In this document: piece after piece, positions 1-7,716 of the stretch | Layout: the number at the start of each line of letters is the position of its first letter | Position numbering within the stretch: position 1 is the stretch's first letter | NCBI GenBank assembly: GCA_003445555.1 | Contig: DMDI01000021.1 | Coordinates: 1 to 12,362 of the forward strand | Direction: 5' to 3' | Source of the DNA: Desulfotomaculum sp. | GTDB taxonomy: Bacteria > Bacillota > Desulfotomaculia > Desulfotomaculales > Nap2-2B | DNA length: 12,362 nucleotides | The notes under the pieces: model-generated | The model's database searches: none | Told to the model about the DNA's origin: nothing | What the model saw: the letters and a program-made list of their open reading frames with translations, nothing else | Position numbers and translations under genes: made by a program

Positions 1-690
1 AGCTGTTTCCTCGGCTGCTCCAGTAGACGGATCAATACTTACCGAGGTGCGAACCTCTAAATTATTATTAACCAGCAGTGAAAAAAGTTTATCGGACACA
101 AGGACAGCCCGCTGGCAAATGGTTTTAGGGATTTCCGGCAAATTATCCAAAGTACCTTTTCCTTTTCCCCCTACCTCAGAGATAAGAAGCCACCCAAAGT
201 TTAAACGTCCTTTACCACAAAGCTGCCCTCCCAAGGAATAAAAACCCTCTCCAGATACTTCATATTCCTGAGTATCTCCCAGTTTTTCCAGAGCCATTGG
301 AGAAGTAACCCAAACCGGCCCCGCCATGGAAGCAACAGGAAAGAACAAGATGTGGGCATCGAAAATCTGAGCCAGCCCCTGCATACTGTTACCAGAACCT
401 TTGGAAAAACCAAAAGGAATACAAACAGGGCAGGCCGGGTTGGTTTGACCACAGTGGTTCTTGCCCCCGTCTCCCCCTCTTCCAGCGCACTGGTATTTCC
501 CTGTTTGCATTGCTGTATAAGCCCTTGCAGGGCCTGACAGGCTGGTTCCCGGAACTTTAGGCAGTTTTGTTCCCGGTTCTCTAAGAATAGGAAGATCAAC
601 ACGGCCCAGCCTTGCTCCGCCAGTCCCGATATGGACAGGATCCAGGGCTAAAGCAAAATATTGTTTGGGTTGGTTAAATTGACAACTCAT
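1..690 (-). CDS. cmr4: Cmr4-type RAMP (Cas7) backbone subunit of a type III CRISPR complex, C-terminus cut by the window edge
   Basis: Cmr4 subunits form the helical backbone on the crRNA in the cytoplasm and cut bound target RNA every six nucleotides. The first 230 codons are present; family members are usually about 280-320 aa. Visible marks are HIGTGGARLGRVDLPILRE (residues 20-38), whose D32 matches by position and context the catalytic Asp of Cmr4 (D26 in Pyrococcus furiosus); VPGTSLSGPARAY (46-58), the RAMP glycine/arginine helix; a four-cysteine cluster C68, C80, C87, C90 leading into IPFGFSKG, a probable zinc site; and VRTSVSIDPSTGAAEETA (213-230), the Cas7 thumb hairpin. The ATG overlaps the cas10 stop by four bases (ATGA) and has a GAGGGGGGAAAGGA leader, so start and translational coupling are clear. 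The frame runs open through base 1, with no sign of a frameshift. Confidence 0.9.
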   Translation of the reverse strand, partial: MSCQFNQPKQYFALALDPVHIGTGGARLGRVDLPILREPGTKLPKVPGTSLSGPARAYTAMQTGKYQCAGRGGDGGKNHCGQTNPACPVCIPFGFSKGSGNSMQGLAQIFDAHILFFPVASMAGPVWVTSPMALEKLGDTQEYEVSGEGFYSLGGQLCGKGRLNFGWLLISEVGGKGKGTLDNLPEIPKTICQRAVLVSDKLFSLLVNNNLEVRTSVSIDPSTGAAEETA

Positions 691-3635
691 TCCTTTCCCC
701 CCTCTTTTAGTTTTGAAAAAACTTTTCGCACTTGCAAATGCCAGTAAAAACAGAGCTGTAATAAACCATCCTTTGCAGCCTGCAGAAACTCATTGCCCTC
801 CTCCGAATCCGGCGAAAGTCCCAGAATATTTTTCAGTGATGTTTTAGCAAATGGTTCCCAGACCAGGTCATTCTTGAACGTATTCCAGGTTTCGAAAACC
901 TCTTCCCAGACAGCGTAAATTCTTGATATACTCCATTTCTTGCTTTTTATCTTTTCTTCTACCTTCAACCATAGTTTTTGTAACCGCCAGATATCATCCA
1001 AAGGCCGCAATTCTTCACCTGCGTAAAAACGATCACCGGAGGATTCCATGAACAGCATCTTAAGATAAGATGCTTCAATTTGGATTTCATCCTGAACATT
1101 ACCATTATTTTTGAGTTCCTTTACGTGAACAACAAACTGGTTACTACCAGAATAATCAAAAGAATAATCGCCACGCCGGGGATCTGGCCCGCTATAACGC
1201 CAGTATGGATGCCAGCAATCCTCCTGGTTGGGATCGCCTGTCGAGTAAGAAATTAACCAGTTCAAGGACGAGGAATCCGGCTCATTTTTTATCTGAAATC
1301 TGATATTTCTTACCCGGCTGCCCATTCTCCCTTGAGAATGCCGGCAGGGTAATTCAGGTTGAGCTTCTTCATTTTCAAGAATTATTCCGGTCAAAGTCTT
1401 TTTTACCCTGAAAGTTTTAATCAACCCTTTTCCTGCCCCCATAACAGAATGAAAAGGAGTGCGGCGGTGAAAAGCTATGAGGCCAAGATGAAAAGGCAAA
1501 CGATCCCTTACTTTTGAAAATTGAATTTCATATTCACGAACAATCTTTTCGGCAATCTCCAGCGCATGGTAAGCAGGTACTAAAACCATAAACTGGTCCG
1601 GTGAATCATATATCTTTACAGATGGAGTGTAACCTTGAAATTCGTCCCGGGCCAATTCACATTGGAAAATTTTAAATCCATCTTTTTTCCAATTTTTATC
1701 CTCGTCTCTTTTCAGTAGGACATTCTTATTGTTTAAGTAAGATATCATACTCGCCATATTCCCGCCCAGGCGGTGGTATATCTGAAAATTACACGTTGTA
1801 ACAAAAAGACCCTGACTTTTATCAATACACACAGGGCTCATCCGAATGCCCTGAATATCTAAATCACACGTCGAACCCTGGTTTATTTTTGGATTAGGCT
1901 CAATCTTAAATTGCAGGCGCTGCCGGCGCATACTTGATGCGGGCGTCCCCTGATGGTAAGGAAAATCAGCTAAAATATTGGAGAAAATAGAGTGATTGAT
2001 AAATTCCTGGGTGGTTTCCCAAACTCGTCTTACCCGGCCTGACGAAGGCGTTTTTTTGGCCATTGTACTAATGGATTTTCCATTCAACCAATCAGTCAGG
2101 TCAAATGCTCCAACCAGCAAGACAACCCGGTCGTTATGATCCGCAACTTCGTCTAACCAGATGGTTTCCCTGGGGCTTTTTATCCAATCATTGGCCCGTT
2201 TTTGGCGGCGTCCAAGACAATTACCACAGCCATTTCCATTCTCAGGCATCGGACGTAAACGGCAAATGGGACAGATTTCAAAACCTTTTTGATTATCATG
2301 CCACGCATCACGGATTTTTCCTGAGATACAGTCCGTAGTATATGGAAATTGTAAAGCTTCTTCGCCTTGCAGCCGCTGAGAAGTAAGATCCTTAAAATCA
2401 TCTAAAGGATCACTTACTTCAATATAGGGTGAAATCTCGGGCTCAATATTTTGGATGGCCTCACGTAATTCTTTAACTAACTCGTCCCAAAAACCAAGAC
2501 CTCGGGCATCCACATCTGGAAAGCTAAAATAAATGCCTGTTGTATCTCTATAAATTTCATTCCCCAGGTAGTACTTAACTTCCAAAATATGCTTTAATTC
2601 CTCTAAGCCCTTATCAATTGCCTGTTGATAACCAAGAATATCGCCGATCTTAATGCCTTTACTTAAGATTGACAGTACATCCAGGTTAACGCGTAGAATA
2701 CGCCACCTAAGAACGGTCTTATATGTTGGAGGAGGACTGGGGTTTGTCGTAATTGGGTCTATCCATCCCTCTAAAATTACTTTTGCAAGTGCTGATTTAA
2801 AAAAGGATGAGGCCAGGGAAGTAGCATCCCAAAGAGTTACATCATTTAAAGGACGTTGGGTATCACCAACTGTTATAAGATAACAGTTCATAAAGCTTTC
2901 TATACATGCTGGATAATTATGCTGCCACCATTGTTCATCAAGGTTCTTATAGTCATTTTTTATTTTCTTTAGGATAGGTATAAGAAAATTTGCTAAATCA
3001 TCTCGTTTGTTTTTAATATTTATCCTACTAAGAATCGGTTGATCTTCAAAACCAAAAGCAGATGCCATACAAGTTATGCTTTTGTTTAGCTGTTTTATTT
3101 TATTTTTTGGATCATTGCCTGACCATGGTAGATCCTTTTCTTCACTGCCAGAAATATCATGCGCAGCAACTAGAATCCTTAACACTTCTTCAGAAACATT
3201 CCATTTTCTTGGATTTTCTATAAATTTTTTAATGCCGCCAGAAAAACTAAGTAACCTCAATCCACCTAATCCATTGGGAACTTGAATCATTCCAACAATA
3301 CGATCAAATGATGAATCTCTCATTGCATTGAAAAAATCATTTGGTAGGTTAAGAGGGTTTAATGTTTGTGGAAATATTTGTTCTACAGTTGGTTTTGACA
3401 AATTATTTGGATCCGGATCCTGAAAGATTTTTTCACTTGCATACAAAGATTCAGTATGTATCCATCCAGGCTGCCCCTTTTTAACACCTTGCGGAGGCTG
3501 TCCATAATCCGATTGCCTGTGAATAAACTCCTCTGATAATTTCCCTAGTAAATGCAGCCAGACGCCGATTTCCGCCAATAAAATCGGCGTACGCTGTTGC
3601 TCAAGAGTTTGGAGGGGATTCCCTGTTCCATTCAT
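687..3635 (-). CDS. cas10: Cas10 of Csx11 type, large subunit of a type III (III-C-like) CRISPR complex, with degenerate HD and palm active sites
   Basis: This 982-aa protein is the large subunit, which in active type III systems senses target RNA, makes cyclic oligoadenylate and cuts ssDNA. Order of parts: a degenerate HD region (20-240; WLHLLGK at 26-32 sits where HD-bearing relatives have LHDIGK); a first palm-like domain (about 350-400, GIYFSFPDVDARG at 367-379); a zinc finger CPIC (455-458) plus CGNC (470-473); the second palm, starting at RVVLLVGAFDLTDW (503-516) with its hairpin YDSPDQFMVLVPA (676-688) in place of YAGGDD; and a helical C-terminus (about 850-982). The N-terminus (LEQQRTPILLAEIGVWLHLLGKLSEEF) and GEELRPLDDIWRLQKLW (873-889) fit Csx11. 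The start has AAGGAGGCGG 7 nt upstream and overlaps the previous stop (ATGA, 3632-3635). Cas10 identity is firm; the Csx11/III-C assignment rests on motif memory and gene order. Confidence 0.85.
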   Translation of the reverse strand: MNGTGNPLQTLEQQRTPILLAEIGVWLHLLGKLSEEFIHRQSDYGQPPQGVKKGQPGWIHTESLYASEKIFQDPDPNNLSKPTVEQIFPQTLNPLNLPNDFFNAMRDSSFDRIVGMIQVPNGLGGLRLLSFSGGIKKFIENPRKWNVSEEVLRILVAAHDISGSEEKDLPWSGNDPKNKIKQLNKSITCMASAFGFEDQPILSRINIKNKRDDLANFLIPILKKIKNDYKNLDEQWWQHNYPACIESFMNCYLITVGDTQRPLNDVTLWDATSLASSFFKSALAKVILEGWIDPITTNPSPPPTYKTVLRWRILRVNLDVLSILSKGIKIGDILGYQQAIDKGLEELKHILEVKYYLGNEIYRDTTGIYFSFPDVDARGLGFWDELVKELREAIQNIEPEISPYIEVSDPLDDFKDLTSQRLQGEEALQFPYTTDCISGKIRDAWHDNQKGFEICPICRLRPMPENGNGCGNCLGRRQKRANDWIKSPRETIWLDEVADHNDRVVLLVGAFDLTDWLNGKSISTMAKKTPSSGRVRRVWETTQEFINHSIFSNILADFPYHQGTPASSMRRQRLQFKIEPNPKINQGSTCDLDIQGIRMSPVCIDKSQGLFVTTCNFQIYHRLGGNMASMISYLNNKNVLLKRDEDKNWKKDGFKIFQCELARDEFQGYTPSVKIYDSPDQFMVLVPAYHALEIAEKIVREYEIQFSKVRDRLPFHLGLIAFHRRTPFHSVMGAGKGLIKTFRVKKTLTGIILENEEAQPELPCRHSQGRMGSRVRNIRFQIKNEPDSSSLNWLISYSTGDPNQEDCWHPYWRYSGPDPRRGDYSFDYSGSNQFVVHVKELKNNGNVQDEIQIEASYLKMLFMESSGDRFYAGEELRPLDDIWRLQKLWLKVEEKIKSKKWSISRIYAVWEEVFETWNTFKNDLVWEPFAKTSLKNILGLSPDSEEGNEFLQAAKDGLLQLCFYWHLQVRKVFSKLKEGGKE

Positions 3636-4759
3636 TTAACCGCCTCCTTCTGCATACATTCAACCAAACAAGATAATTCCTTAAAATTACCAAATTGACC
3701 CGGTTTGTCCGTCAGACCCACAATTGTAATATTGCTTGCCGAAGGATTCCAATTATCTTTAATCACTCCAAACCCACTGGATTTTTTGGCTGAAAATCCA
3801 TAAGTAAGCATGAGTTCCTCCAATCCCTTTACAACACTACCAAGGTCCTGAAGAGAATGGCTGATTCGTTCTCTGTCGCTGAAATTCAGCCAATAAAAGG
3901 GCACATAGACCAGCCTGAAGACCCCGGTGGCACCAACCGGGACTGTTTCAAAATGAATTGGTATTGTGCCTGCTCCAGTTTGGCGGTTATGTGGATTAAT
4001 CACTTCCATATCTACACGGTTCCAAAAAGCAGGGTAGAAATGAAGCATGCCCCTAATATGAGGTAACGTACCCTCATTCAGTTGAAAATGTTCCTGCAAT
4101 TTATTCTTATAAATTTGAGCTGCCTCAGGACAAAGCTCATCCAGGTAACGAACCCACCCTTTTGGTATTTCCTCCAGTCCTTTTTCGGTACCAAAAAGAA
4201 GGGTGTGATGAAAGCGACTGGAAGCAAAAGCATCAAAATCATCTGTTTTTGGCTCTATGTTGCTCTTCATCATCACCCAGCGCAGGTTTCCCTTCCATGC
4301 TGCAGGAGAAATAAAGGGGACTGTAAAAACCTTGTCTTTGCGTACAGGGTTGTCAATGATATAAAGCGGAATATCATCACGGGAAATAAACGGTTTAGAC
4401 AAGGTAACCGGAAACTCCAAAAGCCAGCTTCCTGTTGGCAAACCATCGAGGGCCGGCCTCTTCATAAGATCAAGGACGGCCATCTGTGAAAGAGAACAAT
4501 TAATTGCCAGATTAAAACTTTTGCTGGAATGAACAAGTAATTTTAACCTCGATGGAATATTGCGTTCCCCAGAGCGGGCATAATCTTTTGGGTCAATTTT
4601 ATCAGGTTTGCCCTTTTGATCAGGAAATCTTACTGTGCTTAAAAGCAGGGCTCTGGAAGAAACATCTAAAATCTCTTTATATCTTCCGCTTCCCAGGGTA
4701 AGTTGATCAACATCTGCCCTCGACTGAACGGCAAATTCAGTATAAAAATCAAAACCCAT
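3632..4759 (-). CDS. RAMP-superfamily (Cas7-like) subunit of the Csx11-type type III complex
   Basis: A 375-aa RAMP protein placed between cmr1 and cas10. Seen: NPVRKDK (137-143) followed by VPFISPAAWKGNLRW (147-161), the usual RAMP 'P-x-IPGSSxKGxLR' element; LLFG (187-190); RGMLHFYPAF (236-245) and INPHNRQTGAG (254-264), which resemble the Cas7 strand and thumb (GRLxFxDA, DRxTGxA); and a C-terminal glycine-rich SSGFGVI (327-333). By position it fills the slot that Cmr3 (Cas5) holds in other Cmr operons, but these motifs look more Cas7-like, so I do not assign cmr3. I chose the ATG at 4759 because AGGAGGTGG lies directly upstream; an in-frame ATG at 4780 would add seven residues (MNLRRWI) but has only a weak AAAGG leader. 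It ends in an ATGA overlap with cas10. Confidence 0.8.
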   Translation of the reverse strand: MGFDFYTEFAVQSRADVDQLTLGSGRYKEILDVSSRALLLSTVRFPDQKGKPDKIDPKDYARSGERNIPSRLKLLVHSSKSFNLAINCSLSQMAVLDLMKRPALDGLPTGSWLLEFPVTLSKPFISRDDIPLYIIDNPVRKDKVFTVPFISPAAWKGNLRWVMMKSNIEPKTDDFDAFASSRFHHTLLFGTEKGLEEIPKGWVRYLDELCPEAAQIYKNKLQEHFQLNEGTLPHIRGMLHFYPAFWNRVDMEVINPHNRQTGAGTIPIHFETVPVGATGVFRLVYVPFYWLNFSDRERISHSLQDLGSVVKGLEELMLTYGFSAKKSSGFGVIKDNWNPSASNITIVGLTDKPGQFGNFKELSCLVECMQKEAVK

Positions 4760-4762
4760 AAT

Positions 4763-4771
4763 CCACCTCCT
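4763..4771 (-). promoter_or_regulatory. Shine-Dalgarno site deciding the start of the RAMP gene
   Basis: On the minus strand AGGAGGTGG is followed by ATT and then the ATG at 4759, which puts GGAGG six bases from the start. The site lies inside the longer alternative reading that begins at 4780, where it would be translated as Arg-Arg-Trp. This favours the shorter protein. Confidence 0.75.
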
Positions 4772-4790
4772 CAGGTTCATTCATTTACCT

Positions 4791-6089
4791 TTACGTATTC
4801 TCATTTCCATCAAGCAGGCTTTGAAGAAAAACTTTTATATTTTCTTCTTTGCCAAGTGAATCGCGAATTGAGTTAAACTCACGCCATATGAATTCCCGGC
4901 AGTTTACATTGTTCAAATAACCGCTTGACCAGAAAGTACCTTCCGGCGATAAAGTTTCTTTCAGCCCATTAAGAAAATCCTTCCGGTTGAACGATGTCGG
5001 CAGGTAATCCTGATTCTCTGGTAGCCAGCCCCAAAGGCGAATCTCCCAGGTTTCTGCCTTTTTATAGGCACTCGAAATAAATACCTTCGTTTTTAAACGA
5101 CTCGAATTTTGATATATTTGCCCTGTCTTCTTGGAGCTTCCGCAACGAGGACAAAAATAGGGCTTTTCCTGTCTTTCATTGCCGTTATTATTTTCTCTTA
5201 CTTGATTGCCGCATTGGATACACCAGTTTCCTTCCTTCTGTGAAATATTGCCAAATACATATCTGGAAGCCCATTGTTCCGTAATCAACTTGCTTTGAAA
5301 TCTCAGCCAGTCTTTGAACACCGGCGATAGAGGAACAACCTTGGAAGCTAGCCATTCCTTAAGAGCTTGCTCATGCAATATTTGTTTGCCTCGATCTACC
5401 TTTAATTGACGATTCTCCGGGTTAAGGGCCCAGTGAATACCTTTTGCAGACTTCCACCATTGATCATTTTGGACCTCAAAGCCGACTTTCAGAAAAAACA
5501 TTTCCTTAAGGTCGGTCAGTCCTGTTAGATTTGCATTAGAAGCTGATAAACTGAGAGCATTTATATCAAAATTGATTGCCCCGCCATCCTCAGTCGAAAC
5601 AGTTACCACGCCGTAGCCAGACTGCGTTTTTGCGCCAATCCCTCCCCACCCGGAAGCAAGTTTTAACGGGATAAGGATATGGTTAACGTTAAAATCTTTA
5701 TCTAAAGGCGTAATCCGACATGGTAATTCACCAATAATTCCGGCACCAAGATACCATCCCCGTCCTTGAGAGGAACCGCGTGGCCGGATATTAACCTGTC
5801 CATCATATTTGAGCCGATCACCACCTTCAACTCTTAAAGCAAACTTTCTTCGCCGGCCGGTAGTACCAAATACAGCACAGGCATCACATACCCGTCCATC
5901 CTTATCCGGACATTCATGCCTGAAAGGATCACAAGCCCACCCCCCAAGCCCCCGTATAATTACCTCGTACCACCAGCGCAAAGAGCCGATAATACCGGTC
6001 TCACGCAGACAGTCAGTAGTGCCGTCCACACCGCCCGTCCAATGTGGCGTAAGTGTTTTGAGAATAATATTCATCTGCGTTCCTTTCAT
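4791..6089 (-). CDS. cmr1: Cmr1-type RAMP (Cas7-like) subunit with an inserted zinc ribbon
   Basis: Cmr1 caps the target 3' end of Cmr complexes and helps admit target RNA. The 432-aa protein has the family signature in order: LTPHWTGGVDG (13-23), LRETGIIGSLRWWYE (28-42), a cysteine cluster C53, C60, C68, C71 leading into AVFG (72-75), and the glycine-rich GWGGIGAKTQSGYGVV (147-162). A second RAMP half follows (about 195-432) with LRFQSKL (262-268) and WEIRLWGW (348-355). Into this half is set a CxxC-x19-CxxC zinc ribbon (C290, C293, C313, C316). The start at 6089 has GGAGGTGG four bases upstream; an internal ATG at 6074 with AAAGGA is a weaker alternative. It lies 37 nt after the DUF262 gene and 31 nt before the RAMP gene, so it belongs to the same transcript. 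Confidence 0.9.
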   Translation of the reverse strand: MKGTQMNIILKTLTPHWTGGVDGTTDCLRETGIIGSLRWWYEVIIRGLGGWACDPFRHECPDKDGRVCDACAVFGTTGRRRKFALRVEGGDRLKYDGQVNIRPRGSSQGRGWYLGAGIIGELPCRITPLDKDFNVNHILIPLKLASGWGGIGAKTQSGYGVVTVSTEDGGAINFDINALSLSASNANLTGLTDLKEMFFLKVGFEVQNDQWWKSAKGIHWALNPENRQLKVDRGKQILHEQALKEWLASKVVPLSPVFKDWLRFQSKLITEQWASRYVFGNISQKEGNWCIQCGNQVRENNNGNERQEKPYFCPRCGSSKKTGQIYQNSSRLKTKVFISSAYKKAETWEIRLWGWLPENQDYLPTSFNRKDFLNGLKETLSPEGTFWSSGYLNNVNCREFIWREFNSIRDSLGKEENIKVFLQSLLDGNENT

Positions 6090-6126: not shown

Positions 6127-7716
6127 TCACAAAAAAAACCTTGTTCCAGTCTCTTTCATATAGTCATTGATGGCTTCAGTAATAAGTTTTCTTCGCTCCT
6201 TAAGAAAATCTTTGAATCTGTCTACCTTCCATAAGTCTCTATCTAAAGGGATATATTGGGATATTAACTTTTCCTCTTCGATTTTATCTAGATATTCCTC
6301 TGGCTTTGATTTTAAAATGTGCCTATTTGCTTTTTGGGAAAGAAACGCTATGTTTGCAAGGTCATCTATTTCATGGGCCTGAAAATTAATGCTTTCTTTT
6401 AGCACTGCCTGCGGAAAGATGTGATGAAGTTCAAGCTGATGTTCAGGACCTACATTAGTTGAGCTTAAAACAGTTCCCGTAAACCAATCCTTAGCATTTT
6501 TCTGTCTTAAAATTGTAAATATCAATGGTAAAAATGGATGTCTTTGGTATTTACCTTCAGTCATTTCGACAGTTATATCAAAACTAGGAATATCTTTTTT
6601 TAAATTAGCAACCATATTACCAATTGGGTCGCCAGCCTCTATTGCTTTTAAATCTTGATCAATTTTTGTTTCCGGGCTGCCTGTAAATCTTCCGTGTATT
6701 GTGGCTTCAAAAAACCAGAATAAAAGTCCCTTTTCTTCCTCGTTTGTTAGTTGAGCATTTTTCTTTGATAAGTAAAATACTATCGGAACCAGGGCGTTTA
6801 TGGAAGGGACCCAGTCTGATGATTCAAGCCCGGCATTATTTTTTATAAAATTTATGGTGTGATCAATAGACTTCTTTGTTTTTCTCCAAATATCTTCCAG
6901 CTCAGCCGGTGTTTTTCTCCATAAGGCACTTAAAAAACGGAACCTGTTTTGACCGGTGGCAATGGCAACATAACACCGCATAAGAAAACGGGCTTCTAAA
7001 TTATAGTTTGCTTGTTCATAGTCGTCCAAAGCACTTTCAAATTCTTTTACCAAAGCCCCTGGCCAATGAAATGCCAGTTGAGCCATTGCCAGCTCTGCTT
7101 CTCTTAATTTGGTCCCTTTTGAATTTACTCTTATAAACGATTCTGTGATCTCCTCATAGTCATCAGTATGGATAATCATAACTGGATACCGGTAGTCTTT
7201 AACTTTTTCCAGTGTAGAAAGCCTGCTAAGATATTCATCAAGTCTCGATTCTTCAATCTCAGTGGAGGAGGAATCTAAACGCTTTTTTAACTCCCTCCAG
7301 GCATTAACTGCTCCCCTACCTACCACGTCCTTAACGGAAATCCATAAAGGATTTGCCTTTAATTTTCGGCTATAGATTTGAAATGACTCTTCCTCGACAT
7401 TAAAATAAACATCTATTTCCCCTTCAAGTATTTTCTTGAGCGATGTTAATCTCTGCTGCCCATCTAAAATTAAAAAGTCGGGTGTTCTGCTGTTATTCTG
7501 GTCAAGAGCAATGTCTCGCAGTTCCGGAAGATCTTTTGGCTTCCACAAGAGGATAAGCCCTGACGGGTATTCGCGATAAAGAGAGTCTACCAAGTCTCGT
7601 GCTTGTGGTCTGTTCCAAACATAACCTCTTTGGATTTCGGGCAAGCCCAACACGCCGCCACCAAGTTCCTCAAGTAACACACTCACAGGTTTATCAGTTC
7701 TCTCTAATTTGGCCAT
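6127..7716 (-). CDS. DUF262-DUF1524 protein (GmrSD/ParB-like NTPase domain plus HNH nuclease domain), first intact gene of the CRISPR operon
   Basis: This 529-aa protein joins the two halves of the GmrS/GmrD restriction family. The N-terminal DUF262 (ParB/sulfiredoxin-like, nucleotide-binding) shows LPEIQRGYVWNRPQARDLVD (25-44), FLILDGQQRLTSLKK (81-95, DGQQR motif) and FIRVNSKGTKL (194-204). A helical middle (205-390) follows. The C-terminal DUF1524 HNH domain shows LELHHIFPQAVL (428-439), N455 in DLANIAFLS and N464 in KANRH, so the His-Asn-Asn pattern is complete and the enzyme looks intact. Relatives act as NTP-dependent endonucleases, some against modified phage DNA; the target here is unknown. 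It starts 2 nt after the stop of a DUF3883 remnant, with AGGGGG upstream, and ends 37 nt before cmr1. The C-terminal codons hold a run of eight T on the coding strand. Confidence 0.9.
   Translation of the reverse strand: MAKLERTDKPVSVLLEELGGGVLGLPEIQRGYVWNRPQARDLVDSLYREYPSGLILLWKPKDLPELRDIALDQNNSRTPDFLILDGQQRLTSLKKILEGEIDVYFNVEEESFQIYSRKLKANPLWISVKDVVGRGAVNAWRELKKRLDSSSTEIEESRLDEYLSRLSTLEKVKDYRYPVMIIHTDDYEEITESFIRVNSKGTKLREAELAMAQLAFHWPGALVKEFESALDDYEQANYNLEARFLMRCYVAIATGQNRFRFLSALWRKTPAELEDIWRKTKKSIDHTINFIKNNAGLESSDWVPSINALVPIVFYLSKKNAQLTNEEEKGLLFWFFEATIHGRFTGSPETKIDQDLKAIEAGDPIGNMVANLKKDIPSFDITVEMTEGKYQRHPFLPLIFTILRQKNAKDWFTGTVLSSTNVGPEHQLELHHIFPQAVLKESINFQAHEIDDLANIAFLSQKANRHILKSKPEEYLDKIEEEKLISQYIPLDRDLWKVDRFKDFLKERRKLITEAINDYMKETGTRFFL

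Follow-up and report, generated by a model that had tools for sequence, protein, structure and literature searches.

The 12,362-nt stretch of Desulfotomaculum sp. DNA analyzed here (assembly GCA_003445555.1, contig DMDI01000021.1; "the window" below) carries the greater part of a type III-C CRISPR-Cas operon, whose Cas10 protein, Csx11, has a replaced cyclase hairpin and an altered HD nuclease domain. Our leading interpretation, to which we assign a probability of about 0.7 on sequence grounds, is that Csx11 is a cyclase-less structural subunit and that its complex most likely protects through Cmr4, which would cut target RNA under the guidance of CRISPR RNA (crRNA), without cyclic oligoadenylate (cOA) and probably without cleavage of single-stranded DNA (ssDNA). 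All window features below lie on the complementary strand.

The palm hairpin of Csx11

The csx11 gene (positions 687 to 3635) is an intact, full-length open reading frame (ORF) of 982 amino acids that scored 517.6 bits against TIGR02682 (cut-off 248.95) and was called Cas10c by PADLOC, in agreement with a first-pass annotation that had named the protein a III-C Cas10/Csx11. That annotation had also read the palm hairpin as YDSPDQF in place of the YAGGDDV of active Cas10 proteins, with both glycines and the second aspartate lost, and this was borne out by the DNA, by the register on Cmr2 structures and by alignment with GGDD-containing Cas10 proteins. The palm-2 hairpin occupies residues 676-682 (1590 to 1610) within a translation that reads VKIYDSPDQFMVLVPAYHALEIAEKI; SPDQ corresponds to residues 678-681 (codons 1604-1593), with DSPDQ starting at residue 677. 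A single-protein sequence search of the PDB with Csx11 gave no match, while a profile of 114 Csx11 proteins paired IYDFPDQFMVLVPA with IYAGGDDVLAILPV of Pyrococcus furiosus Cmr2 (3w2v, 4w8y and others; E about 0.002). The same hairpin pairing was obtained by hhalign against a profile of 24 GGDD Cas10s from relatives (probability 97.9), and in this register both glycines and the second aspartate are replaced and the first aspartate position retains D680.

Conservation of the hairpin was scored on two sets of rows. The Csx11 database search gave 220 matches, of which the best 120 were listed; seven of these were dropped as short or partial (P0060, P0072, P0075, P0087, P0089, P0092 and P0094). 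A wider alignment of 204 rows comprises the query, 113 of the 120 listed hits and 90 loci, excluding the duplicate locus L112 and Csx11 ORFs shorter than 450 amino acids, and its rows are not independent, the same gene being represented more than once among several loci and database proteins. Of 119 stretches confirmed in the genome scan, 80 were retained, giving 79 loci; on viral contigs, 21 stretches fit a Csx11 pattern and none was confirmed.

In the 204-row alignment, Pro679 is proline in 199 of 202 residues and Phe682 is phenylalanine in 192 of 202, while position 681, that of the second aspartate, is never aspartate and is glutamate once (0/202 and 1/202). Asp680 is aspartate in 127 of 202 residues and in 116 of the 121 rows closer to the query. 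The motif is PDQF in rows near the query and often EPRTF or EPSxF in the wider family. An intact GGDD equivalent elsewhere in the protein was also looked for: the GGDD string is absent from all 121 rows of the closer alignment, and 15 of the 121 contain a GGED, GGDE, GGEE or GGEF string, never at the hairpin and never in the query. Since the P-x-x-F replacement is conserved across the family, the hairpin is not decaying but is kept as something else; the change is family-wide, and the palm around it is confidently modelled (block pLDDT, the predicted local confidence score, of 88 to 98 over residues 641-740). Substitution in place rather than decay of the domain, as the first reading had proposed, is supported.

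The D-x-D at the end of the first palm-2 strand in active Cas10s was a second candidate marker of cyclase loss, for residues 510-520 (2076 to 2108), where the register is uncertain and no conserved acidic pair is present. An ungapped reading sets residues 510 and 512 at D-x-D, and residue 510 is aspartate or glutamate in 3 of 203 rows; hhalign opens an eight-residue gap and pairs D-G-D with N518-G519-K520, position 518 being aspartate in 59 of 204 rows, which is common but not conserved. Because of this uncertain register, and because the pattern picked up just 16 of the 24 GGDD Cas10s, D-x-D was not used as proof.

The window protein resembles other III-C Csx11 proteins in family, gene order and replaced hairpin, and nothing differs in the palm. 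Compared with the III-B Cmr2 of P. furiosus, it is alike in Cas10 fold, RAMP partners and hairpin register, whereas Cmr2 carries both the GGDD and the HD motif and produces cOA, according to excerpts of PMC7192623, and the window Csx11 has SPDQ and HL. SPDQ is not among the active variants given in the excerpted text of PMC11229360, and III-C or Csx11 is called inactivated in passages of PMC12669027, PMC8730458, PMC6013697 and PMC3150331. The prediction that this complex makes no cOA is therefore well supported by sequence and very likely right, but III-C was already known to have this property.

The altered HD domain and the conserved Cmr4 aspartate

The first-pass annotation had missed that the HD domain is altered as well. 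Residues 28-29 (3549 to 3554) read H-L in place of H-D in the alignment, and the later HD-domain motif, at residues 158-167 (3135 to 3164), reads AHDISGSEEK rather than DxxDS. Across the 204 rows, position 29 is aspartate in 111, leucine, methionine, asparagine, isoleucine or valine in 83 and a gap in 10, such that 83 of the 194 scorable rows are altered as in the query, in agreement with the statement in an excerpt of PMC11229360 that half of III-C loci have a recognizable HD. With classes assigned by pattern, HxxxS..[DE]K follows downstream in every one of the 83 non-D rows, and the 111 D rows comprise 63 with DxxDS, 46 with HxxxHx[DE]K, one with HxxxS and one with another form. The window Csx11 thus belongs to the class with neither HD-site aspartate.

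A FastTree phylogeny built without the HD region (202 rows, two of the 204 being omitted) requires at least 15 switches between the D and non-D states, compared with a minimum of 52 and a mean of 62.3 over 200 shuffles of the labels. The HD state therefore follows descent yet has changed repeatedly, and both mutation and exchange of the N-terminal domain are possible routes. L030, P0038, P0084 and P0086 carry an HD/DxxDS N-terminal domain nested among relatives of the H-L class, which suggests domain exchange in these proteins.

The partner genes in the window are of the Cmr type: cmr4 (Cas7; 1 to 690, truncated by the contig end; family scan and PADLOC), a cmr6-like RAMP gene (3632 to 4780; PADLOC Cmr6, E 3.7e-76) and a cmr1-like RAMP gene (4791 to 6089; TIGR01894, 60.8 bits, cut-off 28.65; PADLOC Cmr1). 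The order cmr1-cmr6-csx11-cmr4 is common to most III-C loci collected. Position 32 of Cmr4 (595-597) is an aspartate identified by motif, which we take to be the RNase residue. A D26N mutation of P. furiosus Cmr4 is named in an excerpt of PMC7192623. Every one of the 80 loci scored has this RNase-type aspartate (42 with the HD aspartate, 28 with an altered HD and 10 with HD unscored); the remaining 11 of 91 loci have no Cmr4 called beside csx11. Of the three classical active sites, only the Cmr4 aspartate is invariant across the loci examined. The system described in the cited part of PMC12669027 has an inactivated cyclase and has lost CARF-type genes, like the window III-C locus, whereas the window reverses its other features in that the Cmr4 aspartate is kept and the HD domain is altered.

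CARF proteins and accessory genes

The first-pass annotation had further predicted that no CARF effector would be needed and had proposed a search of the genome (70.4% complete, 310 contigs). The prediction held for the III-C locus as far as it can be seen: no CARF or cOA effector was found among the scanned window proteins, the contig ending inside the III-C operon. It did not hold for the genome, in which the search found one CARF protein that the annotation had missed, beside III-D genes on another contig (C84, 2023-2637; 204 amino acids; PF09623, 59.7 bits; PADLOC CARF5/Csx1). This separate III-D-like locus, L159 (2023-6568), encodes the CARF protein, a Csm3-like protein, Csx19 and a III-D Cas7; three spaced repeat copies at about 477-685 may be a short array. 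C84 carries no Cas10, and a gene that weakly matches Csm2 is truncated at the contig end. A RAMP search of the same genome matched only contigs C84 and C187. A PF22335 match on contig C182 was rejected as a second Cas10, its sequence being that of a GGDEF and HD-type sensor protein.

PF09623, which worked as a control for CARF detection, matched 15 of 60 genomes, this one included. For twelve of these matches a GGDD Cas10 is no more than 3.1 kb away, and the other three are on contigs without a Cas10 match; none of the 15 lies near any of the 13 Csx11 genes in 11 of these genomes, a comparison limited by short contigs. PF22230 and PF09455 gave no match in the source genome, an uninformative absence given that each exceeded its cut-off in only 1 of 60 genomes despite 24 GGDD Cas10s; PF22230 matches over 49 III-C genomes (two, one of them over cut-off) were set aside because of this poor control. 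Pfam scans of 91 of the 92 unassigned in-operon proteins, the window's own being scanned separately, showed no CARF among the families listed (25/45 and 25/53), and phmmer with the genome's CARF protein found none among the ORFs of all 93 loci at E 0.01.

A different kind of gene recurs in other III-C operons. An ABC ATPase paired with a TOPRIM-fold protein is present in 11 of 91 III-C loci and in all three new loci from a 301-genome scan (together L053, L063, L071, L079, L083, L090, L092, L097, L099, L101, L104 and L164-L166; L099 has the partner gene only, at a contig end). The pair, which the window lacks, normally lies between cmr1 and cmr6 and occurs in several phyla and one archaeon; two profile scans, of 301 and 386 genomes, gave matches to it exclusively within III-C operons. 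Its TOPRIM placement rests on alignment with VIA-align and an E...DxD motif; Foldseek did not place the protein (best E 0.012), and a profile search of PDB sequences with it gave nothing significant. The pair resembles the OLD and PARIS systems in its ABC-type ATPase and TOPRIM-like fold but differs in its CRISPR-operon embedding and in sharing 9 to 14% identity with their chains, the PARIS match being weak. We regard it as a candidate cOA-free effector in those operons.

The window itself encodes a GmrSD-like protein, with the GmrSD_N (DUF262) domain of type IV restriction, 37 bp upstream of cmr1 (6127 to 7716; PF03235, 100.5 bits, cut-off 33.2; HEC-05), with DGQQR at residue 85 and an HNH-like ELHHIFP at residue 429, both found by pattern and the latter with no Pfam match over cut-off there. 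With this protein as query, GmrSD-like genes were seen near 2 of 91 III-C operons, the window's and that of L119 (201-2108), from one genome of the same family. Minimal nucleotidyltransferase and HEPN genes lie in or adjoin the III-C operon in L039, L041, L069 and L071, with a nucleotidyltransferase only in L042 and HEPN only in L064 (calls made on representatives). BREX-kind PglX-type methyltransferase genes flank or lie near the operon in L076, L092, L110, L115 and L116 (PADLOC on the representative L115, the others by BLAST cluster).

Among other features, Csx11 has a zinc-finger-like Cys4 site (C455, C458, C470 and C473; 2217 to 2273), with cysteine in 121 of 121 rows at each position. The window further contains two ordinary neighbours, an amidohydrolase (PF07969; 8301-9857) and a DUF255 thioredoxin-domain protein (PF03190; 10038-12125), and no CRISPR-like array was seen in it. 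Cas1 and Cas4 genes of the same genome lie on a short contig (C103, 578-2167; L152).

How the complex may act

We propose that Csx11 is a large subunit with structural and target-sensing roles and no cyclase chemistry. Replacement of the GGDD hairpin by the conserved P-x-x-F hairpin (here SPDQF) would prevent cOA synthesis, the change of HD to HL together with the His...Ser form of the later motif would probably prevent ssDNA cleavage in this class, and crRNA-guided cutting of target RNA through Cmr4 would be the main protection. We infer the loss of both activities and the RNA cutting, as well as any help from the GmrSD-like protein, from the observed sequence, register, conservation, gene order and predicted fold; it is the Cmr4 aspartate, as the sole invariant classical site, that leads to a model of RNA cleavage without cOA and probably without DNA cleavage.

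Several points weigh against this proposal. A P. furiosus Cmr2 HD and Palm double mutant loses anti-plasmid immunity, as stated in an excerpt of PMC7192623, so RNA cutting alone may not suffice; either it is enough when the targets are natural ones, or the complex has help from an accessory protein. The contig stops inside cmr4, and cmr5 and cmr3, whose positions lie beyond its end, were not seen. The retained Asp680 means that the hairpin may still bind metal or nucleotide, and the D-x-D comparison is weak, which lowers our confidence slightly. Finally, rows of the altered-HD class retain His28 and the His...Ser motif, so that their HD domain may bind metal differently. This last point would suit an HD domain that has kept nuclease activity through a re-arranged metal site, the system then cutting DNA without cOA, given that residue 28 is histidine in 197 of 197 rows with a residue there and that HxxxS..[DE]K accompanies every non-D row. 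However, this class lacks both aspartates of the HD/DxxDS form, and residue 142 (3210 to 3212), in a poorly aligned stretch of low pLDDT, is proline in the query and P0001 and histidine in most relatives (102 of 116 residues in the 121-row alignment), so we consider residual DNA cutting distinctly improbable.

Decay of Csx11 to a non-functional Cas10 would account for two altered catalytic motifs but is very improbable in view of the intact frame, the confident fold, a replacement motif conserved across relatives, a gene order common to other III-C loci and the invariant Cmr4 aspartate. It is unlikely, though conceivable, that the complex senses targets without cOA and acts by directly contacting and driving an accessory effector, be it the ATPase-TOPRIM pair or nucleotidyltransferase-HEPN genes elsewhere or the GmrSD-like protein in the window. 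A related and tentative idea for the family, which we think somewhat doubtful, is that III-C swapped second-messenger signalling for operon-encoded protein effectors, such that the cyclase-dead complex, on binding target RNA, would trigger ATPase-TOPRIM directly and the window GmrSD-like gene may play the same part.

Excerpts of PMC11229360 already describe III-C loci as lacking cyclase sites and known effectors, which makes this an ordinary sort of finding; what is added here is the altered HD domain, the invariant Cmr4 aspartate, the placement of the genome's CARF protein in a separate III-D locus and the ATPase-TOPRIM candidate. According to an excerpt of PMC7192623, if and how III-C-like systems execute immunity needs further work. 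The window offers a clear case, since both Cas10 active sites look lost and the Cmr4 RNase residue is kept, and its protein would therefore separate RNA-only from effector-driven immunity, while the ATPase-TOPRIM pair of other III-C operons provides a concrete, testable gene pair.
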